Part shown: one piece after another, positions 29,309-45,140 of the stretch
Numbering within the stretch: position 1 is the stretch's first letter
Layout of the letters: each line of letters opens with the position of its first letter
From: Natronococcus sp. AD-5
Lineage (GTDB): Archaea > Halobacteriota > Halobacteria > Halobacteriales > Natrialbaceae
Assembly (NCBI RefSeq): GCF_030734285.1
Contig: NZ_CP132294.1
Location: 2,294,001-2,358,000, forward strand
Reading direction: 5' to 3'
DNA: 64,000 nucleotides
The notes under the pieces: model-generated
What the model was told of the DNA's origin: nothing
Seen by the model: only the letters and a program-made list of their open reading frames with translations
Databases searched by the model: none
Translations under genes and position numbers: made by a program

Positions 29309-30574
29309 GTGAACGTTCCACTGGGATCCGGGGAGATCGACGTGCACCTCCCCGGGTGTAACGTAACGGTGGCCGAACCGCCGGGCAGCGAGCCCGTCGA
29401 CGTTCGCGCGGCCGCCGAGCGAGCGCTCGAGGAGCCGCTCGGCCCGCCGCTTTCGTCCCGCGTCGACCCGAACGACGACGTCGCGATCGTCGTCACCGAC
29501 GTCACGCGCAACGCGCCGGACGACGTATTGCTCGATGTCCTGCTCGAGCGCCTCGCGGCACTCGGCGTCGCTCGCGAGCAGCTTACGGTCGTCATCGGTC
29601 TCGGCCTCCACCGGCCGATGACCGGCGACGAGATCGAGGAGATGCTCGGTCCCCACGCCGACCTGGCGGTGAACCACGATCCGAAATCGGTCCGGGAAGT
29701 CGGGACCGTCGGCGAGGCGCCGTGCGCCTCGGGACGGAGCGGTGAAACCGCGAACGACGGCGTCACCGTCGAGATCGGCGAACCCGTAGCGGACGCCGAC
29801 GCGGTTCTTTCCACAGGCGTCGTCGAGCCCCACCAGTACGCCGGCTTCAGCGGCGGCGCGAAGACGGTCGTGATCGGCGCGGGCGGCGAGTCGCTGATCC
29901 GCTACACGCACGGCCCCGAGATGCTCGCCCGCGACGGCGTCCGCCTCGGTCGCGTCGAGGGGAATCCGTTTCGCGAGGCGCTGGACGAAGCGGGCGACCT
30001 CGCCGGGATCGACTTCTCGCTCAACCTGACCCACGGCCCTGCGGGCGTGCTCGGCGTCCGCGCCGGGGAGGGACGCCGGGTCGTCCGCGAACTCGCGGCG
30101 GTGGCTCGAGACGCCCTCTCCGTCCCGGTCGAGCGCGGGTTCGACGCCGTTGTCTGCGGCGTCGGCGCGCCGAAGGACGCGAACCTGTACCAGGCGACCC
30201 GCGGCGCGACCTACGTGGCGCTGGGCGATCGAAATCCCCTGAATCCGTCGGGACGGCTGGTCGTCCCCGCCGCCCTTCCCGAGGGAGCGGGCGAGGGAAC
30301 CGGCGAGCGGCGGTTCTACCGACGGCTCCGGGAGGCCGACGACGCCGAATCGCTGTACCGGGAGATGCGAAAAGGGTACGAACCCGGCGCACAGCGGGCG
30401 TTCGTCGTCGCGCGCGTCCTCCGCGATCACGACCTCGTCGTGACGAACAGCAAGGCTTCGGAGGTCGTCGAGGCGTGTCTCATGAGCGCCGAAGACGACG
30501 TCTTCGATGCGGTAGAACCCGGGAGCGACGTGCTCGTCGTGCCGGACGCGCTGAACACGCTGCTCGTCGAGTGA
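29309..30574 (+). CDS. LarA-like (DUF2088) lactate racemase-domain protein
   Basis: A 421-residue LarA-type protein. Bacterial LarA uses a nickel-pincer nucleotide to racemise lactate or related 2-hydroxy acids. Visible family features include VTDVTRNAPDDVLL, GLGLHRPMTGDE, VNHDPKS and VVEPHQYAGFSGGAKTVVIG. The catalytic-type His residues in the LHRP and EPHQY motifs are retained. No larB, larC or larE cofactor genes are nearby, so the substrate and cofactor remain open. A GTG start is supported by a TATA-like CGTTTTTCAC 27 nt upstream. Confidence 0.85.
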   Translation: MNVPLGSGEIDVHLPGCNVTVAEPPGSEPVDVRAAAERALEEPLGPPLSSRVDPNDDVAIVVTDVTRNAPDDVLLDVLLERLAALGVAREQLTVVIGLGLHRPMTGDEIEEMLGPHADLAVNHDPKSVREVGTVGEAPCASGRSGETANDGVTVEIGEPVADADAVLSTGVVEPHQYAGFSGGAKTVVIGAGGESLIRYTHGPEMLARDGVRLGRVEGNPFREALDEAGDLAGIDFSLNLTHGPAGVLGVRAGEGRRVVRELAAVARDALSVPVERGFDAVVCGVGAPKDANLYQATRGATYVALGDRNPLNPSGRLVVPAALPEGAGEGTGERRFYRRLREADDAESLYREMRKGYEPGAQRAFVVARVLRDHDLVVTNSKASEVVEACLMSAEDDVFDAVEPGSDVLVVPDALNTLLVE

Positions 30575-33155: not shown

Positions 33156-34166
33156 TCAGGATCGGTCCGCGTCCGGTGCCAGCGCCTCCATCGTCGCCTC
33201 GATCTCGTCGGCCTCGGCGCTGCGCGGGAAACTGACGGCGACCGCGTCGACGCCGTCGATCGCCTCGAATCGCGCGAGTCGGTCGCGCGCGGTCTCCGGA
33301 TCGCCCGCGGCGCAGAGGTCCTCGAGCAGCTCGTCGGAGACCGCCTCGAGCGCCCGCTTCCGGTCGTCCGACTGCCAGGCGTCGTGGATCGTCTCCGCTT
33401 CGTCGTAGCCCTGCCGGGCCAGCGCGTCGCGGTAGAACGTCCCCATCCCGCCGACGTAGAAGGCGGTGTGCTGGCGGGCGAGTTCCCGGGCGCGGTCGGC
33501 GTCCTCGAGCGCACAGCAGGTGACGCCGACGGTCGCCGCGACGTCGTCCGGCTCGCGGTCGCCCAGGTCGGTGCCGCGCTCGAGGTCCTCGAGGCGGTCC
33601 CGGAGTCCGTCGGGCGTGAGCATGATCGCGTGCCAGCCGTCGGCGAACCGGCCCGCGAGTTCGACCGCCTTCGGTCCCATCCCGGTCACTTCGATCGGCG
33701 GCACGGGATCGGGCGGATTACACCGGAGTCGAAAGCCGGCGAGCGAGAAGTGATCGCCGTCGTAGTCGACGGTCTCCCCCGAGAGCACCCGGCGGACGAT
33801 CTCGACGGTCTCGCGGGTGCGCTTGAGGGGGTTGCCGTACTCGAGGCCGTGCCAGTTCTCGATCACGACGGGACCGCTCGGGCCGAGGCCGAGCCGGAAT
33901 CGCCCGTCGGCGACCTCCTGCAGCGTCGCGGCGGTCTGGCCGAGTAGCGCGGGCGAGCGCGAGTAGGTGTTGACGATGCTGGTGCCGACCTCGACGCTGC
34001 CGGTTCGCTCGGCGATCGTGGTCAGGACGGTCACCGCGTCCCGGCCCCACGTCTCGGGAAGCCAGACGCAGTCGAACCCGCCCTCCTCGGCTCGCCGGGC
34101 GTACTCGGCCAGCGAGTCGACGCTCGGCTGGGCCGCGACCGGGAGGTGGACGTCCCTGTGGGTCAT
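33156..34166 (-). CDS. LLM-class F420-dependent oxidoreductase
   Basis: A 336-residue luciferase-like TIM barrel with VWLPETWGRDAVT, GTSIVNTYSRSPALLGQTAATL and GRFRLGLGPSGP. It belongs to the haloarchaeal branch related to methylene-H4MPT reductase-like enzymes that use F420. The substrate is unknown. The ATG overlaps the SDR stop by 4 nt, so both are translated from one mRNA; pairing with an SDR suggests two-step oxidation or reduction of one compound. Confidence 0.85.
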   Translation of the reverse strand: MTHRDVHLPVAAQPSVDSLAEYARRAEEGGFDCVWLPETWGRDAVTVLTTIAERTGSVEVGTSIVNTYSRSPALLGQTAATLQEVADGRFRLGLGPSGPVVIENWHGLEYGNPLKRTRETVEIVRRVLSGETVDYDGDHFSLAGFRLRCNPPDPVPPIEVTGMGPKAVELAGRFADGWHAIMLTPDGLRDRLEDLERGTDLGDREPDDVAATVGVTCCALEDADRARELARQHTAFYVGGMGTFYRDALARQGYDEAETIHDAWQSDDRKRALEAVSDELLEDLCAAGDPETARDRLARFEAIDGVDAVAVSFPRSAEADEIEATMEALAPDADRS

Positions 34167-34939
34167 ACCTCTGGCGACTCTTCGATGCGCGGCAGCCCCT
34201 GCGCGGTGATCGTCTCGCCGACGACGTACGAGGAGGCCGGACTCGCGAGGAACTGCGCGAGGTCGGCGATTTCCTCGACGGTTCCCATTCGGCGTTCGAC
34301 CTCGTTCCGGTCGACCTCGTCGGCCGAGACGCCCATCTGACTCTCGACGCCCGCCGTCGCGACGAAGCCGGGCGCGATGCAGTTGACGCGCACGTTATCG
34401 GACGCCCACTCGTAGGAAAGGGTCGTCGTCAGGTTCACGACGGCCGCCTTGGCGGCGCCGTAGTGGCTCATGTACGGCGAGCCCGTCTGTCCGGCGACGC
34501 TGGACAGGTTGATCACGATCCCGCCGTCCTCCTTCAAGTGTTCCGCGGCGGCCTGCGTACAGTGGTAGGTGCCGTGGACGTTGATGTCGACGATCGTCTT
34601 CCAGCCGTTCTCCGAGATGTCGTCGAAGGTGGCCATGAACGACGCGCCGGCGTTGTTCACCAGCACGTCGAGGCCGCCGAACTCCTCGACGGTCGCCTCG
34701 ACCATCGCCTCGACCGCCTCGCGGTCGGTCACGTCGCACTCGACGGAAAGCGCCGTGCCGGGGCGGTCGCTCCCGTTAATTTCCTCCGCGACCGGGTCGA
34801 CGTTGTCCTGCTCGCGCGAGCAGATCACGACGTCGACGCCGTCGGATGCGAACCGCTTCGCGATCGACTCCCCGATGCCGCTCGAGGCCCCGGTGACGAT
34901 CGCGACGTCGCCGTCGACGCTGAACCGGTCGGTACTCAT
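34163..34939 (-). CDS. Short-chain dehydrogenase/reductase (SDR)
   Basis: A 258-residue classical SDR with the nucleotide loop TGASSGIGESIAKRF, the NNAGAS structural motif, and the active-site triad Ser (NLSSVAG) and Tyr-x3-Lys (HYGAAKAA). It probably oxidises a hydroxyacyl or similar substrate with NAD(P). It is the first gene of a two-gene operon with the LLM enzyme. Its position next to hydroxy-acid and acyl-CoA genes suggests a role in beta-oxidation of hydroxylated acids; in the bacterial levulinate pathway an SDR plays an equivalent part. Confidence 0.9.
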   Translation of the reverse strand: MSTDRFSVDGDVAIVTGASSGIGESIAKRFASDGVDVVICSREQDNVDPVAEEINGSDRPGTALSVECDVTDREAVEAMVEATVEEFGGLDVLVNNAGASFMATFDDISENGWKTIVDINVHGTYHCTQAAAEHLKEDGGIVINLSSVAGQTGSPYMSHYGAAKAAVVNLTTTLSYEWASDNVRVNCIAPGFVATAGVESQMGVSADEVDRNEVERRMGTVEEIADLAQFLASPASSYVVGETITAQGLPRIEESPEV

Positions 34940-34973
34940 CGGCGATCACCCGCCTCCGCTGCGAACGTAGTTA

Positions 34974-34995
34974 CCATTGTAAGATACAGTAATGG
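34974..34995. promoter_or_regulatory. Inverted repeat CCATT-N12-AATGG with TATA-like core
   Basis: Located between the divergent SDR and alpha-hydroxy-acid oxidase genes. The minus-strand TATCTTAC inside it is about 43 nt from the SDR start. The core CATTGTAA recurs in front of the acyl-CoA dehydrogenase gene. Confidence 0.35.
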
Positions 34996-35107
34996 ATACG
35001 CAGACACTGTTAATAAAGATGGGTACGACCCCCGTACCGTTAAGGCGGTAGAAGGTTACTGTCACCGATACGCACACTCGAGCGGCGACCGCCGTTCGCA
35101 CAGCACT

Positions 35108-36292
35108 ATGACAGGAGAAGACACCAGATACGGGCCGGATCGACAGGAAGCGGTCTACCGACGAGGGATGCTCGAGGGCGATCCGCCGGAGTTTCCGGTC
35201 GCCTACGAGGACCTCGAGGAACGCGCCCGCGAGGAGCTCGGCGAGGAGGCGTTCGCGTACGTCGCGGGCGGCGCGGGCTCCGAATCGACGATCGAGGCGA
35301 ACGACCGCGCCTTCGACGGGTGGGAGATCGTTCCGCGCATCCTGCGGGACGTTTCCGACCGGGATCTCTCGGTCGAGCTGTTCGGGCGGGAGATTCCCGC
35401 ACCCGTCCTGCTCGCGCCGATCGGCGTGCAGTCGATCCTCCACGACGAGGCGGAACTCGCCGTCGCCCGCGCGGCGAGCGACGTCGGCGTGCCGATGATC
35501 TCGAGTTCCGTCTCCTCGTACACGATGGAGGAGATCGCCGACGAACTCGAGGCGCCGGGCTGGTTCCAGCTCTACTGGAGTTCCGATCGCGACGTGGCGG
35601 CCAGCTTCCTCGAACGGGCCGAGAACGCCGGCTTCGAGGCCGTCGTCGTCACCCTCGACACGCCGAAGATGGGCTGGCGCGAGCGCGACATCGAACTCGC
35701 CTACCTCCCCTTCCTCGAAGGTCAGGGGATACGGAACTACTTCGAGGACGACGCCTTCCGCGACCGGCTCGAGACCGACGACCCGTGGGCCGACCCGGAG
35801 GCCTCGCTCGAGTCCTTCATCGACCGCTTCGGCGACGCCTCGCTCACCTGGGACGACCTCTCGTTCCTGCGCGAGCACACCGACCTGCCGATTATCCTCA
35901 AGGGCGTGCTCCACCCGGACGACGCTCGACGCGCCGTCGAACGCGGGATGGACGGCGCGATCGTCTCGAACCACGGCGGCCGCCAGGTCGACGGCGCGAT
36001 CCCGGCGCTCGAGGCCCTGCCCGACGTCGTCGAGGCCGTCGGCGACGACGTCCCGGTCCTCTTCGACAGCGGGATCCGCCGGGGCAGCGACGCCGTCCGG
36101 GCGATCGCGCTCGGGGCCGACGCCGTCCTGCTCGGCCGACCCTACGCCTACGGGCTCGGGATCGGCGGCGAGGATGGCGTGCGATCCGTCCTGCGGAACT
36201 TCCTCGCGGACCTGGACCTGACCGTCGGACTCTCGGGCTGTGCCGGCATCGACGAGGTCGACCGGTCGACGGTCCGGCGGGCGGAGCGATGA
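35108..36292 (+). CDS. FMN-dependent alpha-hydroxy-acid oxidase (lactate oxidase-like)
   Basis: A 394-residue TIM-barrel flavoenzyme that oxidises L-2-hydroxy acids to 2-oxo acids. Family features: PAPVLLAPIGVQSILH near the FMN, GWFQLYWSSDRD, VTLDTPKMGWRERD, then the catalytic His in VSNHGGRQVDGAIPAL and LFDSGIRRGSD with LGADAVLLGRPYAYGL. Electron acceptor (O2 or a quinone) is not predictable. The stop overlaps the HAD start (ATGA), so an oxidase-phosphatase operon is formed. Confidence 0.88.
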   Translation: MTGEDTRYGPDRQEAVYRRGMLEGDPPEFPVAYEDLEERAREELGEEAFAYVAGGAGSESTIEANDRAFDGWEIVPRILRDVSDRDLSVELFGREIPAPVLLAPIGVQSILHDEAELAVARAASDVGVPMISSSVSSYTMEEIADELEAPGWFQLYWSSDRDVAASFLERAENAGFEAVVVTLDTPKMGWRERDIELAYLPFLEGQGIRNYFEDDAFRDRLETDDPWADPEASLESFIDRFGDASLTWDDLSFLREHTDLPIILKGVLHPDDARRAVERGMDGAIVSNHGGRQVDGAIPALEALPDVVEAVGDDVPVLFDSGIRRGSDAVRAIALGADAVLLGRPYAYGLGIGGEDGVRSVLRNFLADLDLTVGLSGCAGIDEVDRSTVRRAER

Positions 36293-37017
36293 GCGCGGAT
36301 CCGCGCTCCGGCGATCCCGACGCCCCCGAGGAGTGGGAGGCCGTCTTCTGGGACGTCGGCGGCGTCGTTCTCGACCTCGAGTCGGTCCGGGCCGCCCACA
36401 CCGCGTTCGTCGCGGACCTGCTCGAGCGCCGCGACGTCGACGCGACCATCGAGGAGGCGATCGCCGCCTGGCGCAGCGCCGTCGGCGATCACTTCCGCGA
36501 GCGCGACGGGACGGCGTTCCGGGCCGCCCGCGACGGCTACCACAAGGGCATCGAAGCGGTCGTCGGCGAGCCGATCCCGCGAGCGGAGTGGAAGCCGCCG
36601 TTTCGAGAGGCCGTCCGGTCCTCGATCGAGCCGGTTCCGGGCGCCGTCGAAACCGTCGAGCGACTCGCCGCTCGAGATCTCCACGTCGGCGTCGTCAGCG
36701 ACGTCGACGACGAGGAGGGCCGGTGGATGCTCGAGCAGTTCGGCGTCCGCGAGGCGTTCGACTCGATCACGACCTCCGAGGAGGTCGGTCGGACGAAGCC
36801 CGACCCCGCGATGTTCGAGACGGCCCTCGAGAAGGCCGGCGTCGCACCCGAACGGTCGCTGATGATCGGCGACCGGTACGAACACGACGTCGAAGGGGCC
36901 GCCGAGGCGGGGTTACACGGCGTCGCCTTCGGCGCCGAGGACGGCCCCGCCGTCTCGTACCGGATCGAGTCGCCGCTCGAGATCCTCGAGATCGTCGACG
37001 GCGAACGGGACGAGTGA
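36289..37017 (+). CDS. HAD-superfamily hydrolase (subfamily IA)
   Basis: A 242-residue HAD phosphatase. Motif I is seen as FWDVGGVVLDL (nucleophile Asp), motif II as VGVVSDVDD, motif III Lys in GRTKPDPAMF and motif IV as MIGDRYEHDVEG. The 'DxGG' variant is that of epoxide-hydrolase-N/YihX-like phosphatases, which is also the HAD type in mammalian ACAD10. The ATG overlaps the oxidase stop by 4 nt. The substrate is unknown; a phosphorylated hydroxy acid is a reasonable guess from the neighbourhood. Confidence 0.88.
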   Translation: MSADPRSGDPDAPEEWEAVFWDVGGVVLDLESVRAAHTAFVADLLERRDVDATIEEAIAAWRSAVGDHFRERDGTAFRAARDGYHKGIEAVVGEPIPRAEWKPPFREAVRSSIEPVPGAVETVERLAARDLHVGVVSDVDDEEGRWMLEQFGVREAFDSITTSEEVGRTKPDPAMFETALEKAGVAPERSLMIGDRYEHDVEGAAEAGLHGVAFGAEDGPAVSYRIESPLEILEIVDGERDE

Positions 37018-37202
37018 CGCGCGATCCCGTTCCGATACCGATAGCTGTTCGGTCGCTTGACTGTCGAATCGCGATAGAGGTCCCGTAACCTGTAAAATTC
37101 GGAGTGTTCAGGGCCAACTTCTTTTTATCCGCTGGGCGGACCAGTACGTGATCGCCACGGCGCCTCGGCGCGCGCGAATCGGACCGGAAACCGCTTCAAC
37201 CC

Positions 37203-38330
37203 ATGAGAACGACCAGTCAGGGCGTATCGCGGGTGACCATCCGTCGGTTCGAGCCCGGCGACCGAGCCGCGTTTCTGTCGCTGTACGAGACCGTGTTCGA
37301 ACGCGACCGTCGCACCGACTGGTTTCGGTGGAAGTACAAGGAGAACCCCTACGTCGATCACGTTCCGATCGTCGTCGCCGAGCACGACGGCGACCTCGTC
37401 GGCTGTCGGTCGCTGTTCGCCCAGGAAATGCGCGGACACGGAACGGTGCGGACGGCGTTCCAGCCGTGCGACACGATGGTCCACCCCGAGCACCGTCGCC
37501 GCGGGCTGTTCAGCCGGATGAACGAGCGGACCCTCGAGCGCTACACTGACGGCGGGCCGTCGTTCTTCTTCAACTTCCCGAACGAGGCCTCGATGCAGGG
37601 GAACCTCGACTGCGGCTGGCGCGAGATCGGAACGGTGCCGCTGTACTATCGGTTCCAGGATCCCGTCCGCGCCTTCGAGCGGTGGGCGGGCGACTCCGAA
37701 TCGACGAGCGGTTCGACGGATCGCTCGAGCGGAAACCGCGCGACGGCCGCGCTCTCGAGAGCGCTCGCCGACGCGATAGCGGGTTCGCACCGGGCGGGCG
37801 ACCGGCTCCTGACCCCCGACGCCGGCGTTCGAATCGTGCGCTACGAGACGCCGCCCCCCGAGACGCTCGAGCGGATCTATCGGCGGTCGATCCCCGACGC
37901 GATGCACACGAATCGGACCGAGGCGTTCTACCGCTGGCGGTTCGCCAATCCGGAGCACACCTACACGACGTACGTCGCGAAACGGGACGCCGCGCCGGTG
38001 GCCGCGCTCGTCGTCTCCGAGGTCGACGATCACGTCCGGATCGTCGAGACGCTCCCGCGAACGGTCGACTCCGAACTGGCGGCGCTCAACCGGTTGCTCG
38101 TCGCGGTGCTCTCCGAGTACGAGGATCGCAGTTACGTCACCGCGTTCGGCGAGACGCTGCCGACGCCGGTTCGCTACCGGTTCTACCCCGATACGCGGGC
38201 GCCCCTCTCGACGGTGATCCGACCGTCGGCGCGGACGCTGCTCGCGCGCGATATCGACGCGAAAAGTGCGGTCGAAAACAGTTCGGCCGCCGACTGGACG
38301 TTCTCGCGGCTCGACCTCGATACGACCTGA
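37203..38330 (+). CDS. GNAT-family N-acetyltransferase
   Basis: A 375-residue double-domain GNAT. The first domain has the acyl-CoA loop MVHPEHRRRGLFSRM (R-x-x-G-x-F/G), preceded by the beta strand VGCRSLFAQEM. The second half (from about residue 190) repeats an acetyltransferase-like fold, as in Eis-like proteins. A TATA-like CTTTTTATCC lies at 37121-37131, about 75 nt upstream of the ATG, leaving a leader. The substrate is unknown. Confidence 0.8.
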   Translation: MRTTSQGVSRVTIRRFEPGDRAAFLSLYETVFERDRRTDWFRWKYKENPYVDHVPIVVAEHDGDLVGCRSLFAQEMRGHGTVRTAFQPCDTMVHPEHRRRGLFSRMNERTLERYTDGGPSFFFNFPNEASMQGNLDCGWREIGTVPLYYRFQDPVRAFERWAGDSESTSGSTDRSSGNRATAALSRALADAIAGSHRAGDRLLTPDAGVRIVRYETPPPETLERIYRRSIPDAMHTNRTEAFYRWRFANPEHTYTTYVAKRDAAPVAALVVSEVDDHVRIVETLPRTVDSELAALNRLLVAVLSEYEDRSYVTAFGETLPTPVRYRFYPDTRAPLSTVIRPSARTLLARDIDAKSAVENSSAADWTFSRLDLDTT

Positions 38331-38354
38331 CGGGGAACCGCGGAACCGACCCGG

Positions 38355-39569
38355 TTAGCCGCGGAAACGCGTAACCGGGTCGAGTTCGTGTTCGTCGATA
38401 TCCTCGAAGGCGTCGCGGGCGATCACGCGCTTGTGGACCTCGTCGGCGCCGTCGACGATGCGGAACGCGCGGACGTTCTCGTAGAAGTCCGCCAGCGGCA
38501 GGTCCTTGCCGATCCCGTTGCCGCCGCAGCACTGGATCGAGAGGTCGACCGTCTCCTGGGCGACGTTGGCGGTGAACACTTTCGCCATCGAGACCGGAAC
38601 GCGGGCTTCCTTCCCCTCGCTGATCTCGCGCGCCGCGTGGCGGACCATCGTCCTGGCCGCGTGCAGTCGGGTCTCCGCGTCGGCGATCTCGTAGCGCAGG
38701 CTCTGTTTCTCGGAGAGCGTGCTGCCGAACCCCTCGCGTTCGCTCGTGTAGGCCTTCGCGACCTCGAGCGAGCGCTGGGCCATCCCGGAAAAGCGCATGC
38801 AGTGGGTGAGCCGCGCGGGGCCGAGGCGCTTCTGGGCGATGGCGAAGCCGGCGTTCTCGGCGCCCAGCAGGTTCTCCTCGGGAACGCGCACGTCGTCGTA
38901 AATGATTTCGGCGTGGCTCGCGCCCCGGAATCCCCCGCCGACGTGGGGGATGTCGCGCTGGTACTCGACGCCGTCCGCGTCGCTCGGGACGAGGAAGATC
39001 GAACACCCTTCGTAGGGGTGGGCGTCCCGGTCGGTCCGGGCCATCACCAGCAGGACGTCGGCCTCGCTACCCTGGGTCGTCCACCACTTGTGGCCGTTGA
39101 TGACCCACTCGTCGCCCTCTTTCTCCGCCGTGGTCTTGATCATCTTCGGATCCGAGCCGCCGCCCTGCATCGGCTCAGTCATCGAAAAGCCCGAGTGGAT
39201 CTCCGCGTCGACCAGCGGCTCGAGCCACCGCTCTTTCTGTTCGTCGGTGCCGGCCATCTCCAGGGTGTGCATGTTCCCCTCGTCGGGCGCGTCGACCCGC
39301 AGCGCCAGCGGTCCGAGCAGGCTGCGACCGGCCTCCTCGAACGCCGGCAGGACGTCGCGGAACTCGAGGCCGAGCCCGCCGTGCTCCTCGTCGATCTGCG
39401 GCGCGTAGAGCGCTCGCTCGCGCGCTTTTTCTCGCAGCTCCTCGACGGTATCGTCCGGGACCGGGCCGTTCCCGAGCCACTCCCGCTCGACCGGGATCAC
39501 TTCCTCGTCGACGAACTCGCGGACGTTTGCGGCCAGTTCACGCGCCCGATCGCTGTCGTGATACTCCAT
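38355..39569 (-). CDS. Acyl-CoA dehydrogenase, ACAD10/11 type
   Basis: A 404-residue flavoprotein. FAD/substrate signatures: SMTEPMQGGGSDPKMI, KWWTTQG and the C-terminal QCCGGNGIGKDLPLADFYENV. The end VDGADEVHKRVIARD carries the D-G-x-D-E-V-H motif characteristic of the ACAD10/ACAD11 subfamily rather than classical FadE. In that subfamily the enzyme acts on 4-phosphoryl-acyl-CoA, eliminating phosphate. It is divergent from the APH-like kinase gene, from a shared 163-bp promoter region. The start is supported by a TATA box 26 nt upstream. Confidence 0.9.
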   Translation of the reverse strand: MEYHDSDRARELAANVREFVDEEVIPVEREWLGNGPVPDDTVEELREKARERALYAPQIDEEHGGLGLEFRDVLPAFEEAGRSLLGPLALRVDAPDEGNMHTLEMAGTDEQKERWLEPLVDAEIHSGFSMTEPMQGGGSDPKMIKTTAEKEGDEWVINGHKWWTTQGSEADVLLVMARTDRDAHPYEGCSIFLVPSDADGVEYQRDIPHVGGGFRGASHAEIIYDDVRVPEENLLGAENAGFAIAQKRLGPARLTHCMRFSGMAQRSLEVAKAYTSEREGFGSTLSEKQSLRYEIADAETRLHAARTMVRHAAREISEGKEARVPVSMAKVFTANVAQETVDLSIQCCGGNGIGKDLPLADFYENVRAFRIVDGADEVHKRVIARDAFEDIDEHELDPVTRFRG

Positions 39570-39589
39570 GCTACCAGTTATGCGAACAT

Positions 39590-39599
39590 TGTAAAATAA
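39590..39599 (-). promoter_or_regulatory. TATA box and CATTGTAA core of the acyl-CoA dehydrogenase gene
   Basis: TTATTTTAC on the minus strand, centred 26 nt before the ATG at 39569. The same stretch contains CATTGTAA (plus strand), repeated before the SDR gene. Confidence 0.5.
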
Positions 39600-39732
39600 G
39601 GTTTCCGTCGTAACTATTTTCGTTAATCGGACCGGGAGTAGTACCGTACACGACTATGACGATCGGAACCCCCCTTCGAACGAATCGGGCCGTCTCGACC
39701 GGACAGCGGGTCGAACGCGCCAGCCTCGAGCC

Positions 39733-40794
39733 ATGACGGAGCGCTACTACGAGCGCCTCGTCGACGAGGACGCGCTGGCGGCGTACCTCGAGTCCCACCT
39801 GGGCGCGGCCGACGAGTACGAGATCGACCGCCACCAGGAGGGCCACTCCAACGAGACGCTGTTCGTCACCTGGGGCGACCGCGACCTGGTGATCAGACGA
39901 CCGCCGCCGGGCGAGACGGCCGACACCGCCCACGACGTCCTGCGGGAGTACCGGGTGACCGAGGCGCTGGTCGACACCGACGTCCCCGTCCCCGAGCCGC
40001 TGCTCGCCTGCGAGGACCACGACGTCATCGGTAGCGACTTCTACGTGATGGAGCGACTCGCGGGCGACGTGCTCCGGCTCGAGGAACCCGACCGGTTCGC
40101 CGAGCCCGAACACCGCGAGCGGATCGGCGAGGAACTCGTCGACACGCTGGCGGCGATCCACGATGTCGACTACGAGGACGTCGGCCTCGGCGAGTTCGGC
40201 TACCCCGAGAGCTACACCGAGCGCCAGGTCGAGCGCTGGGGGCAGCAGCTGATGTGGGCGTTCGACCGCACCGCGGACGAACGCGAAGTGCCGGACCTCT
40301 ACGAGGTCGGCGCGTGGCTGCAGGAGAACGTTCCCGACGACCACCCGCACGCGCTCGTCCACGGCGACTACAAGCTGGATAACGTGATGTACAGTCCCGG
40401 TACTCCACCGGAGCTGGTCGGCGTCTTCGACTGGGAGATGGCCACGCTGGGCGACCCGCGGGCCGACCTGGGCTGGATGCTCTCCTACTGGCGCGACGCG
40501 AAGGACCCCGACCCCGCCGTGCCGGAGCTCACGGCCGCCTTCATGGAACGGGAGGGGTACCCGACCCGCCGAGAACTGGTCGACCGCTGGGAGGAGCGGA
40601 CCGGCCTCGAGTTCGAGCGCGAGCAGTTCTACCGCGCGCTCGCGGTGTACAAGCTGGCCGCCCTCGGCGAGATGTTCTTCCGGCGCTACCTCGAGGGCAA
40701 CAGCGACGATCCGATGTACCCGCGGATGGAAGAACGCGTTCCGGCGCTGGCCGCGCGAGCGATGCGAATCATCGACGGGGAGGAGCCGCTCTGA
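39733..40794 (+). CDS. APH-like phosphotransferase (ACAD10/11 kinase-domain type)
   Basis: A 353-residue protein kinase-fold phosphotransferase. N-terminal HQEGHSNETLFVTWGDRDLVIRR matches the ACAD11 kinase domain. The catalytic loop is VHGDYKLDNVMY (HxD...N) and the metal-binding DWEMATLGDPRADLGW replaces DFG. In mammals this domain phosphorylates the 4-hydroxyl of 4-hydroxyacyl-CoA; bacterial LvaA does so with 4-hydroxyvaleryl-CoA. Aminoglycoside resistance is unlikely. The gene is followed directly by a MaoC hydratase (stop to ATG 1 nt), so the two are an operon. Confidence 0.9.
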   Translation: MTERYYERLVDEDALAAYLESHLGAADEYEIDRHQEGHSNETLFVTWGDRDLVIRRPPPGETADTAHDVLREYRVTEALVDTDVPVPEPLLACEDHDVIGSDFYVMERLAGDVLRLEEPDRFAEPEHRERIGEELVDTLAAIHDVDYEDVGLGEFGYPESYTERQVERWGQQLMWAFDRTADEREVPDLYEVGAWLQENVPDDHPHALVHGDYKLDNVMYSPGTPPELVGVFDWEMATLGDPRADLGWMLSYWRDAKDPDPAVPELTAAFMEREGYPTRRELVDRWEERTGLEFEREQFYRALAVYKLAALGEMFFRRYLEGNSDDPMYPRMEERVPALAARAMRIIDGEEPL

Positions 40795-40795
40795 C

Positions 40796-41248
40796 ATGCG
40801 CTACTTCGAAGACATCGAGGTCGGCGAAACGCGCTCGTTCGGCGAGTACGACGTCACGGAGGACGAGGTCGTCGAGTTCGCCGAGCGGTACGATCCCCAG
40901 CCGTTCCACGTCGACGAGGAAGCCGCGGCGGACAGCATGTTCGGCGAACTGGTCGCCTCGGGCTGGCACACCGCGGCGATGTCGATGCGGATGCTCGTCG
41001 AGGGCCCCGACGACGAGGACGGGTGGGCTTCGATGGGGTCGCCCGGCGTCGACGAACTGCGCTGGCACCAGCCGGTCAAGCCGGGCGATACGCTCTCGCT
41101 TCGAACCGAGGTCCTCGAGAAGCGCCCCTCCGAGAGCCGCTCCGACCGCGGCTACGTGAAGAGCCGACTCGAGACGTACACCCAGGACGACGAGCTCGTC
41201 ATGAGCTGGGTCGGGAACACGATCTTAGAGCGCCGCGACGACGAATAA
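40796..41248 (+). CDS. MaoC-family dehydratase
   Basis: A 150-residue hot-dog fold protein. RYFEDIEVGETRSF opens the domain and RYDPQPFHVDEEAA carries the hydratase Asp/His pair (D and H in 'D-P-Q-P-F-H'). It probably hydrates an enoyl-CoA to 3-hydroxyacyl-CoA. It is placed one base after the kinase gene, consistent with taking the enoyl product of the ACAD step. Confidence 0.88.
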   Translation: MRYFEDIEVGETRSFGEYDVTEDEVVEFAERYDPQPFHVDEEAAADSMFGELVASGWHTAAMSMRMLVEGPDDEDGWASMGSPGVDELRWHQPVKPGDTLSLRTEVLEKRPSESRSDRGYVKSRLETYTQDDELVMSWVGNTILERRDDE

Positions 41249-41308
41249 TTACCGTCGTTTGCTCTTCCTTGCCCCTCGCGTACGATATACGTAGATACGT
41301 CCCTTTCG

Positions 41309-41323
41309 TTAACATTGGTAACT
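41309..41323. promoter_or_regulatory. Near-palindrome GTTAACATTGGTAAC before the fused beta-oxidation gene
   Basis: It lies about 43 nt before the ATG at 41366, just upstream of a TATA-like GAGTTAAGG (about 41334-41340). It shares CATTG-TAA with the two motifs upstream and may be an operator. Confidence 0.3.
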
Positions 41324-41365
41324 CGGTTCGGTGGAGTTAAGGCCGTCCCGGCCGACCACACGGGC

Positions 41366-43324
41366 ATGTCATACGACACCATCGGCCGCGTCGCCGTGCT
41401 CGGCGCGGGAAACATGGGACACGGAATCGCCGAGGTGACCGCGATGGCCGGGTACGACGTCACCATGCGGGACATCGAACCGGAACTGGTCGAGGACGGT
41501 TACGAGGGGATCGCCTGGAGCCTCGAGAAACTCGAAGAAAAAGACCGCCTCGAGGAACCGGCCGACGAGATTCTCGACCGAATCGAGACCACGACCGACC
41601 TCGAGGCGGCCGTCGCCGACGCCGACCTCGTCGTCGAAGCCGCGCCGGAGAACCTCGAGCTGAAACACGATATCTTCCGGGATCTCGAGCGCTACGCCGA
41701 CGAGGACGCGCTGCTCGCGACGAACACCTCGAGCCTCCCGATCACGGACGTCGCGGAGGTCGTCGACGCGCCCGAGCGCGTGCTCGGACTGCACTTCTTC
41801 AACCCGCCGGTGAAGATGGACCTCGTCGAAGTCATCTACGGCGCCGAGACGAGCGGCGCCGCGGCCGAGGCCGGTTACGAGTGGGTCGAGTCGATCGACA
41901 AGACGCCGATCTACGTCCGCAAGGACGTCCGCGGTTTCGTCGTCAACACCATCGTCGGCCCCTTCATCGGCGAGCCGGCGTGGATGGTCTCCGAGGGCGA
42001 CGCCGACGTTCGCCAGGCCGACGCCGCGATGGCTCACGGGCGGGGCTACCCCATGGGGCCGTTCGAGCTCGCCGACCTGACCGGAATCGACGTCGGCTAC
42101 CACGTCCGCAAGGAGGCCGGCGACGACATCCCGCCGATCATGGAGGAGAAAGTCCAGGCCGAAGAATTCGGGAAGAAGACCGGGAAGGGGTTCTACGGCT
42201 ACGAGGAGGGTGACGGTCCCGACTACGAGCCCGGGGACGGCGAGGGGTTCGACACGCTTCAGGTCGAAGCGCGGATGATCAACCGCGCGGCCTACCTGGT
42301 CGGCGAGGACGTCGCGACGCCCGAGGCGATCGATATCGGCGTCCGTCTCGGCCTGGGCTTCCCGGAGGGGATCTGCCGTCGCGCGGACAAGATCGGCCTC
42401 GAGACGGTACTGGAGACACTCGAGACCCAACTCGAGGAGACCGGCGACGACCGGTTCGAGCCGCACTCGCACCTGCGAGAGCTCGTCGAGGAGGGGAAGA
42501 CCGGCGAGGACGCCGGCGCGGGCTTCCACGACTACGGCGGCGGGGAGGGGGGCCTCGACTCCTACCGCTACCTGAACGCCGAGATCGAGGACGGGGTCCT
42601 CGCGGTCGAACTCGACCGTCCGGAGCGGATGAACGCGCTGTCGGCCGACCTGCTCGAGGAGATCGACGACCTGTTCTCGACGGTCGACACTAACGAAATT
42701 CGGTGCGCGACGATCGAGGGGACGGGCGACCGCGCGTTCAGCGCCGGCGCGGACATCACCGGCTTCGGCTCGCTCGAGCCGACCGACGCGATGGACGTCA
42801 CGCCCGCCTTCGAGACGGTCAACGACTTTCCGCGGCCCGTGGTCGCGAAGATCGACGGCTACTGTCTCGGCGCCGGCCTCGAGCTCGCGCTCGCCTGCGA
42901 TCTCCGCCTGGCGACGAAACGGTCGTCGTTCGGCGCGCCCGAAATCGGTCTCGGGCTGATCCCCGGTGGCGGCGGTACGCAGCGGCTGCTGCGCGTCCTC
43001 GGCGAGACCCGCGCGAAGGAGCTGGTCTTCCGGGGCAACCACATCGACGCCGAGCGAGCCGCCGACTGGGGGCTCGCTAACCGGGCCGTCGACCGCGACG
43101 AGTTCGACGAGACCGTCGAAGCGTTCGTCGACGACCTGCGAAACGGCCCGCCGCTCGGGCTCGAGGTGGCCAAGAAGGTGATGAACCGGGGCGAGGACGC
43201 CAGCCTCGAGGCGGCGCTGGCGATGGAGAGCCAGGGCTTCGGCCTCCTGATCGGCACCGACGACGTGCGGGAGGGGACCGCCGCGTTCGCGGAGGACCGC
43301 GAGCCGGAGTTCGAGGGCGAGTGA
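41366..43324 (+). CDS. 3-hydroxyacyl-CoA dehydrogenase/enoyl-CoA hydratase fusion
   Basis: A 652-residue bifunctional beta-oxidation enzyme. Residues 1-390: dehydrogenase with NAD loop VLGAGNMGHGIAEV, LGLHFFNPPVKM, and two C-terminal helical lobes. Residues 400-652: crotonase fold with oxyanion site FSAGADITGFG and catalytic Glu in GAGLELALACDL and EIGLGLIPGGGGTQ. Both active sites appear complete. This orientation (dehydrogenase first) differs from bacterial FadB/mammalian TFP-alpha and is common in archaea. A MaoC protein follows one base after the stop. Confidence 0.94.
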   Translation: MSYDTIGRVAVLGAGNMGHGIAEVTAMAGYDVTMRDIEPELVEDGYEGIAWSLEKLEEKDRLEEPADEILDRIETTTDLEAAVADADLVVEAAPENLELKHDIFRDLERYADEDALLATNTSSLPITDVAEVVDAPERVLGLHFFNPPVKMDLVEVIYGAETSGAAAEAGYEWVESIDKTPIYVRKDVRGFVVNTIVGPFIGEPAWMVSEGDADVRQADAAMAHGRGYPMGPFELADLTGIDVGYHVRKEAGDDIPPIMEEKVQAEEFGKKTGKGFYGYEEGDGPDYEPGDGEGFDTLQVEARMINRAAYLVGEDVATPEAIDIGVRLGLGFPEGICRRADKIGLETVLETLETQLEETGDDRFEPHSHLRELVEEGKTGEDAGAGFHDYGGGEGGLDSYRYLNAEIEDGVLAVELDRPERMNALSADLLEEIDDLFSTVDTNEIRCATIEGTGDRAFSAGADITGFGSLEPTDAMDVTPAFETVNDFPRPVVAKIDGYCLGAGLELALACDLRLATKRSSFGAPEIGLGLIPGGGGTQRLLRVLGETRAKELVFRGNHIDAERAADWGLANRAVDRDEFDETVEAFVDDLRNGPPLGLEVAKKVMNRGEDASLEAALAMESQGFGLLIGTDDVREGTAAFAEDREPEFEGE

Positions 43325-43325
43325 G

Positions 43326-43763
43326 ATGGCCGTCTCGTTCGAGGACCTCGAGGTCGGCCACGGGGTCGTCACCCACTCGCGGACGATCACCGAGGCGGAC
43401 GTCCGCAACTACGCGGGCGTCAGCGGCGATTTCAACCCGCTGCACCTGAGCGAGGAGTACACCGCCGACACGCCGTTCGGCGAGCCGATCGCTCACGGCG
43501 CGCTCCTGTTCGGGATCGCGTCGGGACTCCTCTGGCAGTACCGCCACGAACGCCCCGAGACGATCGCCTTCTACGGGGTCGATTCGCTCCGGTTCACCGA
43601 ACCCGTCACGATGGGCACGACGGTTCACGCCGAATCCGAGTTGATCGAGAAGGAGCCCCGGGATCATCCGGTCGCGAACGGCGTCGCGCGCTACGAGACG
43701 CGGCTCGTCACCGACGAGGACGAGGTCGCGCTCTCCTGTGAGATGCTCACGCTTGTGAAGTAA
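43326..43763 (+). CDS. MaoC/(R)-specific enoyl-CoA hydratase-type protein
   Basis: A 145-residue hot-dog protein. VSGDFNPLHLSEEYTADT is the hydratase-2 motif (GD-x-NP-H). It could produce (R)-3-hydroxyacyl-CoA, the precursor of polyhydroxyalkanoate, or serve as a second hydratase in beta-oxidation. It forms an operon with the preceding fusion gene and is the last gene before the TnpB element. Confidence 0.88.
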   Translation: MAVSFEDLEVGHGVVTHSRTITEADVRNYAGVSGDFNPLHLSEEYTADTPFGEPIAHGALLFGIASGLLWQYRHERPETIAFYGVDSLRFTEPVTMGTTVHAESELIEKEPRDHPVANGVARYETRLVTDEDEVALSCEMLTLVK

Positions 43764-43898: not shown

Positions 43899-45140
43899 AT
43901 GGAACACAGTCACCGCTACCAAGCCTACCCGACACAAGAGGTAGCGGAAGGACTGGAATACCATCTGAACGTTCATCGCCAACTCTACAACCACATCCGA
44001 TGGGACTACGAAAACAGTCCTGAGGACGACAAACCGTCTGAGTACGACCAGAACAACAAACTCCCCGAGTGGAAACGTAAGTGGCCTGTGTTTAGCGAAC
44101 TGCACTCGAAAGCCGCACAAGCTACCGTCGCTCGTTTCCACCGCAATCTCTCGAACCTTCGCAAGAAGAAAGAGAAGGGATACAACGTCGGTCGTCTCAA
44201 GCGGCAAGCACCCACCGATTATCGAAGCGTGACGTACAACCAGTCCGGTTTCGACCTCGATGAAAAGAGGGGCCGCGACAGGTTTGCCTACGTGCGTTTC
44301 AGCAAAATCGGCTGGGTCAAAATCCGGTACCACCGCCCGATACCCGACCACGCCACCATCAAAGAAGTCACCTTCAAGAAGGAGACGACTGGCGAGTGGT
44401 TCGTTTCCTTCGGACTGGAAATCGACGAGGCTGACCTGCCAGAGAAACCCGGCGTGGACTCACTCGATGCGAGCAACAGCGTCGGGATCGACCTCGGTAT
44501 CCTCAACTACATCCATACGTCGGACGGGACAACCGTGGACTGGCTCGACCTCGAAGACGACTACGAGCGTCTGCGCCGCGAACAACGCAAGCTGTCGCGG
44601 AAGGAATACGGGTCGAACAACTACGAGAAACAACGCCAGAAGATCGCCAAGATCAACCGCCACATCCAGCGGAAGGTGCTGGACTACCAGCACAAAATCA
44701 CGACGTGGCTCGTCCGAGAATACGACGCCGTGTTCGTGGAAGACTTGGATGTGAAGGAGATGCTTGAGCAGCCACATACCGCTCGGAACAAGCAGGATGC
44801 GGCGTGGCGACAGTTCATCACACTCCTCGAATACAAGGCGGAGTTGTACGGCTGCCACGTCAAACAGGTCGAAGCACGAGGAACGACTAAAGAGTGCGCT
44901 CGGTGTGGTGTGGAGACAGCGAAACCCCTCTGGGTGCGTGAACACTCCTGTCCCTCGTGCGGATTCAAGACGGACAGGGACGCGAACGCGGTGATGAACG
45001 TGTTGCAGCGAGGTTTTTCTGAGTTAGGGCTGGGATGGCCCGAAGACACGCCCGTGGAGACTGTGACCGCTACGGACACGACTCAGTTTGAGTCCGTGTC
45101 TGCAAGTCACGTCGTAGAAACGGGAAGCCTCGGGGCTTGA
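43899..45140 (+). CDS. tnpB: RNA-guided nuclease TnpB (IS1341-type OrfB)
   Basis: A 413-residue TnpB, an ancestor-type of Cas12. The RuvC triad is intact: Asp198 in GIDLGILNY, Glu281 in VEDLDVKEM, Asp361 in TDRDANAVMN. The zinc ribbon is C333-x2-C336 and C351-x2-C354. Full length and no frameshift, so probably active. TnpB cuts DNA under guidance of an RNA made from the element's right end, promoting retention of the transposon. Codon usage is less GC-rich than the flanks, consistent with mobile origin. It sits between the beta-oxidation genes and the exported redox proteins. Confidence 0.93.
   Translation: MEHSHRYQAYPTQEVAEGLEYHLNVHRQLYNHIRWDYENSPEDDKPSEYDQNNKLPEWKRKWPVFSELHSKAAQATVARFHRNLSNLRKKKEKGYNVGRLKRQAPTDYRSVTYNQSGFDLDEKRGRDRFAYVRFSKIGWVKIRYHRPIPDHATIKEVTFKKETTGEWFVSFGLEIDEADLPEKPGVDSLDASNSVGIDLGILNYIHTSDGTTVDWLDLEDDYERLRREQRKLSRKEYGSNNYEKQRQKIAKINRHIQRKVLDYQHKITTWLVREYDAVFVEDLDVKEMLEQPHTARNKQDAAWRQFITLLEYKAELYGCHVKQVEARGTTKECARCGVETAKPLWVREHSCPSCGFKTDRDANAVMNVLQRGFSELGLGWPEDTPVETVTATDTTQFESVSASHVVETGSLGA

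Follow-up and report, generated by a model that had tools for sequence, protein, structure and literature searches.

A kinase paired with an unusual dehydrogenase serves the breakdown of 4-hydroxy fatty acids in humans and some bacteria. Mammalian ACAD10 is a fusion of a HAD domain, a kinase and an acyl-CoA dehydrogenase (ACAD), and ACAD11 is a kinase-ACAD fusion. The pathway has been described in mammals and proteobacteria; archaea are not mentioned in the ACAD10/11 papers cited here. We asked whether a gene cluster from a haloarchaeal genome of 5.17 Mb, contained in a 64,000-nucleotide stretch analysed here as the window, encodes an unfused version of this system or a simple fatty-acid island. 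The cluster probably provides an unfused haloarchaeal route for entry of 4-hydroxyacyl-CoA into beta-oxidation and is best seen as a new archaeal form of an already described pathway.

Gene content of the locus

The genes considered are the following.

33156-34166 (-), F420-dependent LLM oxidoreductase (569 bits on TIGR04024, above the cut-off); possible extra member
34163-34939 (-), SDR oxidoreductase (Pfam adh_short)
35108-36292 (+), FMN 2-hydroxy-acid oxidase, LldD-like (FMN_dh, 3e-126; 35108 is the best start)
36289-37017 (+), HAD-fold protein with motif I FWDVGG (Pfam HAD)
37203-38330 (+), GNAT gene between HAD and ACAD
38355-39569 (-), LvaC/ACAD11-type ACAD with C-terminal DGADEVH (PDB matches, residues, tree)
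39733-40794 (+), APH-fold kinase with GHSNETLF and HGDYKLDNV (Pfam APH PF01636, E=2e-50)
40796-41248 (+), first MaoC-like hydratase (MaoC_dehydratas, 2e-19)
41366-43324 (+), fused 3-hydroxyacyl-CoA dehydrogenase/enoyl-CoA hydratase, 3HCDH-ECH (3HCDH_N, 3HCDH, ECH_1)
43326-43763 (+), second MaoC-like hydratase (MaoC_dehydratas, 3e-27)

The genes named in the original prediction are all in place: the kinase with its motifs, the divergent ACAD with its DGADEVH terminus, the SDR, the oxidase, MaoC and the fused 3HCDH-ECH. The GNAT gene had not been named. Spacing is tight at several points. The SDR stop and the F420-dependent oxidoreductase gene overlap by four bases, as do the oxidase gene and the HAD start, and the kinase stop lies one base before the first MaoC gene. 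The F420-dependent oxidoreductase gene adjoins the SDR gene in several genera and may belong to the pathway, and the fused 3HCDH-ECH gene accompanies the kinase in many genera. The LldD-like oxidase is an optional member, missing from several related loci. Neither an acyl-CoA ligase nor a thiolase was found in the stretch examined, and a profile search returned no NCBIfam equivalog for kinase, ACAD or HAD.

Two neighbouring genes were also recorded. A LarA-like lactate racemase gene (Lar_N, 29309-30574, +) lies a few kb from the oxidase. Such a gene is also close by in L052, L053 and L063, a hint of a module for 2-hydroxy acids. Directly 3' of the cluster is a TnpB-like ORF (43899-45140, +), a close relative of which sits beside an LvaC-type ACAD in L100.

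The dehydrogenase carries equivalents of the ACAD11 active-site residues

The best PDB sequence matches of the window ACAD are 4hr3 and ACAD11 (8v3u, 2wbi), which rank above MCAD. In ACAD11, R626, H634 and R637 are salt-bridge partners of the 4-phosphate, R631 is a conserved ACAD residue and D753 is the catalytic base (PMC12440821). Equivalents of all five are present in the aligned window ACAD (RxxxxRxxHCMR). Among haloarchaeal ACAD rows, those of R626, R631, R637 and D753 are found in 47/47 and that of H634 in 46/47, and all five residues are present in 79 bacterial homologue rows. Canonical ACADs and MCAD lack the signature: positions 626 and 634 differ, 637 mostly differs and 753 is mostly Glu. 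Departures also occur closer by. Four bacterial rows within the LvaC-type clade are without the full signature (R637 is Asn or His), and in the L096 ACAD (8855 onward) Pro replaces the phosphate-binding His634, the remaining signature being intact.

In a maximum-likelihood tree of 65 sequences, the window ACAD falls inside an LvaC/ACAD10/11 clade (support 98/98) that leaves the ordinary haloarchaeal dehydrogenases outside. The haloarchaeal LvaC-type ACADs form one clade (100/100), whose sister group (94/86) includes the ACAD of an lva-like Pseudomonas operon (L152, see below); ACAD11 belongs to the second main branch. The same picture emerged from a FastTree of 161 rows, where the two clades have support of 99 and 100. 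The haloarchaeal ACAD shares 33% identity with ACAD11 and 39% with the lva-like operon ACAD, and to our knowledge no member of the haloarchaeal branch has been assayed. Phylogeny had been put forward as a check able to overturn the original prediction; the window ACAD does not cluster with ordinary FadE, from which both the tree and the five residues separate it. Its assignment as a predicted 4-phosphoacyl-CoA phosphate-eliminating enzyme is thus well supported at the sequence level.

L086, L087, L088, L090, L092, L093, L095 and L096 have a further LvaC-type ACAD, a paralogue of about 67-73% identity, which adjoins a different SDR (about 40%) and has no kinase nearby.

The L152 operon, from Pseudomonas peradeniyensis, comprises a divergent PrpR-like sigma-54 regulator, an APH kinase, a DUF6285 protein of 118 aa, an ACAD, an SDR and an AMP ligase. 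It was taken as lva-type because this gene order matches lvaRABCDE, whose composition is tabulated in PMC6692424. Published identities of LvaC to ACAD10 and ACAD11 are 62% and 56% (PMC11342911). The L152 operon ACAD is only 34% identical to ACAD11, a mismatch that bears on which branch holds the assayed LvaC, and another ACAD of the same genome reaches 58%. This second type, carried by nearly all 40 Pseudomonas genomes sampled, was examined as a candidate LvaC; the copy in L202 has neither a kinase nor an SDR nearby. The published range of 56-62% fits this kinase-less ACAD rather than that of the operon.

The kinase falls on the ACAD10/11 side

Compared by sequence with the PDB, the window kinase matches 9o56, 3dxp and the kinase domain of ACAD11 best. 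The catalytic Asp (D220) and Asn (N225) of ACAD11 and its CoA-contacting R176 have equivalents in 17/17 haloarchaeal kinase rows counted, whereas Ala stands at the R176 position in the L152 kinase. The alignment context also preserves an Arg next to the Glu of helix C, at a position counted two residues off the published R86. The kinase tree has two sides, separated at 100/99, with ACAD11, 9o56, 3dxp and the haloarchaeal kinases on one and the LvaA-like kinase of L152 with its relatives on the other. LvaB/DUF6285 occurred in 0/61 haloarchaeal genomes by a search that was positive in two control genomes. LvaA proper was rejected as the identity of the kinase on both grounds. For the kinase, the original label 'ACAD10/LvaA-type' is thereby refined to the ACAD10/11 branch. 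We regard the protein as a predicted 4-hydroxyacyl-CoA kinase of the ACAD10/11 type acting in the role of LvaA. As read from the phylogenies, the haloarchaeal system is thus a mixed pair, with its kinase on the ACAD10/11 side of one tree and its ACAD on the LvaC side of the other.

L097, L098, L103 and L104 carry kinases of another haloarchaeal group (about 33-37% identity), which is sister to the main group; no LvaC-type ACAD was seen in these stretches.

Kinase and dehydrogenase occur together

Distribution was followed in 61 relatives, in 293 haloarchaeal genomes order-wide and in 148 genomes of the phylum. Among the 61 relatives, kinase and LvaC-type ACAD are present in the same 36 and missing from the same 25. 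Order-wide, 162 genomes have both, 130 have neither, none has the ACAD only and a single one, which is 78% complete, has the kinase only. As Fisher p-values ignore phylogeny, we also counted by genus: the kinase occurs in 50 and the ACAD in 49 of 87. The two genes are no more than 5 kb apart in 26/36 relatives and apart in 10/36. Co-occurrence persists in the latter, and the pattern cannot be put down to linkage alone. The SDR-HAD-ACAD-kinase-3HCDH/ECH synteny is seen again in other genera and families. With this recurrent synteny and the near-perfect co-occurrence of kinase and ACAD, the grouping is far beyond chance, and the system is widespread among haloarchaea (163/293 genomes) rather than special to the window.

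Close matches in the phylum sample were confined to 8/148 genomes, all of the same order, with none outside it. Of 56 bacterial loci with an LvaC-type ACAD, 37 have an APH kinase no more than 4 kb away. The missing matches outside the order, together with the wide occurrence of the family in bacteria, suggest that haloarchaea acquired the system from bacteria.

The SDR and the HAD protein

The SDR is a generic cSDR, and its 34% identity to the SDR of the lva-like operon is not diagnostic. It is present at 70% identity or more in 34/36 kinase-positive relatives. Its linkage points to a predicted interconversion of 4-keto- and 4-hydroxyacyl-CoA, the role of LvaD.

A close homologue of the HAD protein occurs in 27/36 kinase-positive and 0/25 kinase-negative relatives. 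Throughout the cluster HADs read, motif I is D-[IV]-G-G, so that the second Asp of DxD is missing; the nucleophile Asp and motifs II-IV are retained. The original prediction of a DxGG-type HAD phosphatase near the ACAD holds for the protein and its position, 1.34 kb away, and needs refinement as to the activity: a catalytic HAD phosphatase was rejected, the DxD of motif I being incomplete. On TIGR02253 the window HAD reaches 91 bits, against 35 on TIGR02247, and the homology seen with the ACAD10 HAD is at the level of the fold. An AlphaFold model computed from the single sequence had a pLDDT of 48 and was left out of the analysis.

Discussion

From the sequence features, tree positions, co-occurrence and synteny observed here we infer a set of reactions, their substrate and a role for the HAD protein. 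An acyl-CoA ligase encoded elsewhere would activate a 4-keto or 4-hydroxy acid, candidates being levulinate, 4-hydroxyvalerate or longer gamma-hydroxy acids, and the SDR would interconvert the 4-keto and 4-hydroxyacyl-CoA forms. The kinase would then phosphorylate the 4-hydroxyl group with ATP. The LvaC-type ACAD would bind the 4-phosphoacyl-CoA and, with FAD and the Asp base, eliminate phosphate and return the hydride, giving 2-enoyl-CoA, which the MaoC and fused ECH-3HCDH proteins could pass through ordinary beta-oxidation. The original proposal of an unfused archaeal 4-hydroxyacyl-CoA system, in place of a simple fatty-acid island, thus finds support in trees, residues and co-occurrence. 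If it is true, over half of the haloarchaea sampled have the pathway.

The same phosphorylation-elimination chemistry could act on another hydroxyacyl-CoA, such as a branched, isoprenoid or sterol side-chain compound or one with the hydroxyl on a different carbon. The clade is broad in bacteria, where catabolic loci of various kinds hold many LvaC-type ACADs, and two or more ACAD paralogues are frequent in haloarchaea. However, the phosphate-binding residues fit the 4-phospho substrate site of ACAD11, the ACAD10 study centred on 4-hydroxy substrates (PMC11342911), and growth of Haloferax mediterranei on levulinate (see below) favours the 4-hydroxy-acid label, which makes such a substrate improbable. 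Hardly credible is an ordinary beta-oxidation island in which a straight-chain FadE-like ACAD has, by chance, an unrelated APH-fold kinase for resistance or a small molecule as its neighbour. MaoC and ECH-3HCDH flanks are usual in fatty-acid islands, but a canonical FadE is excluded by tree and residues, the kinase belongs with those of ACAD10/11, and the two genes go together even where they are unlinked.

The HAD domain of ACAD10 has only one Asp of DxD and negligible phosphatase activity, and mutation of this remaining Asp raised kinase output (PMC11342911). This suggests, by analogy, that the haloarchaeal HAD partners the kinase in a regulatory or editing role, as a dedicated component of the phosphorylation/elimination step that most likely limits the kinase or its phospho-intermediate. 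Alternatively, the HAD protein might serve the SDR or the 2-hydroxy-acid oxidase, for instance as a repair phosphatase, and track the kinase through modules that travel together. Its gene is tied more closely to the SDR (23/27 within 3 kb) than to the kinase (20/27 within 10 kb) and overlaps the LldD gene in the window. Against this, all 116 genomes with the HAD order-wide are kinase-positive (116/163, vs 0/130 kinase-negative genomes), the two kinase-negative relatives that have the SDR are without the HAD, and LldD is absent from many HAD loci. We therefore consider a function outside the kinase step rather unlikely. Returning to a HAD that restrains the kinase, we entertain, tentatively and with more doubt than conviction, that haloarchaea put together a system of their own, taking a kinase of the ACAD10/11 type and an ACAD of the LvaC side, and independently added a crippled DxGG HAD as a kinase brake, the same solution as ACAD10 in animals. 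If the cluster works as proposed, it would open the puzzling HAD domain of human ACAD10 to study as a stand-alone protein, in a microbe amenable to genetics.

The cluster can be compared with several known systems. Like lvaRABCDE of Pseudomonas putida, it has separate genes for an APH kinase, an LvaC-type ACAD and an SDR, and the ACAD of the lva-like operon is closer to the haloarchaeal one than ACAD11 is. Unlike lvaRABCDE, it has its kinase from the other branch, lacks LvaB/DUF6285 in the 61 genomes and an adjacent PrpR-like sigma-54 regulator or ligase, and has gained a HAD partner. With ACAD10 it shares all three folds, a kinase on the branch of the ACAD11 kinase domain and a HAD without the second Asp of DxD (PMC11342911), whereas HAD, kinase and ACAD are encoded by three unfused genes, that of the ACAD on the opposite strand, and the window HAD scores low on TIGR02247, nearer TIGR02253, so that the likeness is one of fold and motif defect. 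Active-site residues of both ACAD11 domains recur in the haloarchaeal proteins, which differ from ACAD11 in being unfused, in their 33% ACAD identity and in the associated HAD. Loci of P. citronellolis (PMC6692424), Thermus and Deinococcus likewise combine a kinase, an LvaC-type ACAD and an SDR with a phosphatase-like gene nearby, but the latter has a histidine phosphatase fold, not a HAD fold.

Levulinic acid is a biomass-derived chemical used for the bioplastic PHBV. On plasmid pHME132 of H. mediterranei ATCC 33500 (L110), genes for 3HCDH-ECH, kinase (E6P09_RS18925), ACAD (RS18920), HAD (RS18915) and SDR (RS18905) stand in one row. DSM 1411 is the same type strain. H. mediterranei DSM 1411 grows in mineral medium with levulinic acid, reaching a maximum growth rate of 0.097 per h at 0.6 g/L from an inoculum taken from complex medium (PMC12455835). 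No gene assigned to this growth was found in the literature, as far as our incomplete search extended. The plasmid genes may explain it, the link being a correlation; if true, they are gene candidates for a published and so far unexplained phenotype. A CoA ligase is encoded about 5 kb from the pHME132 cluster.
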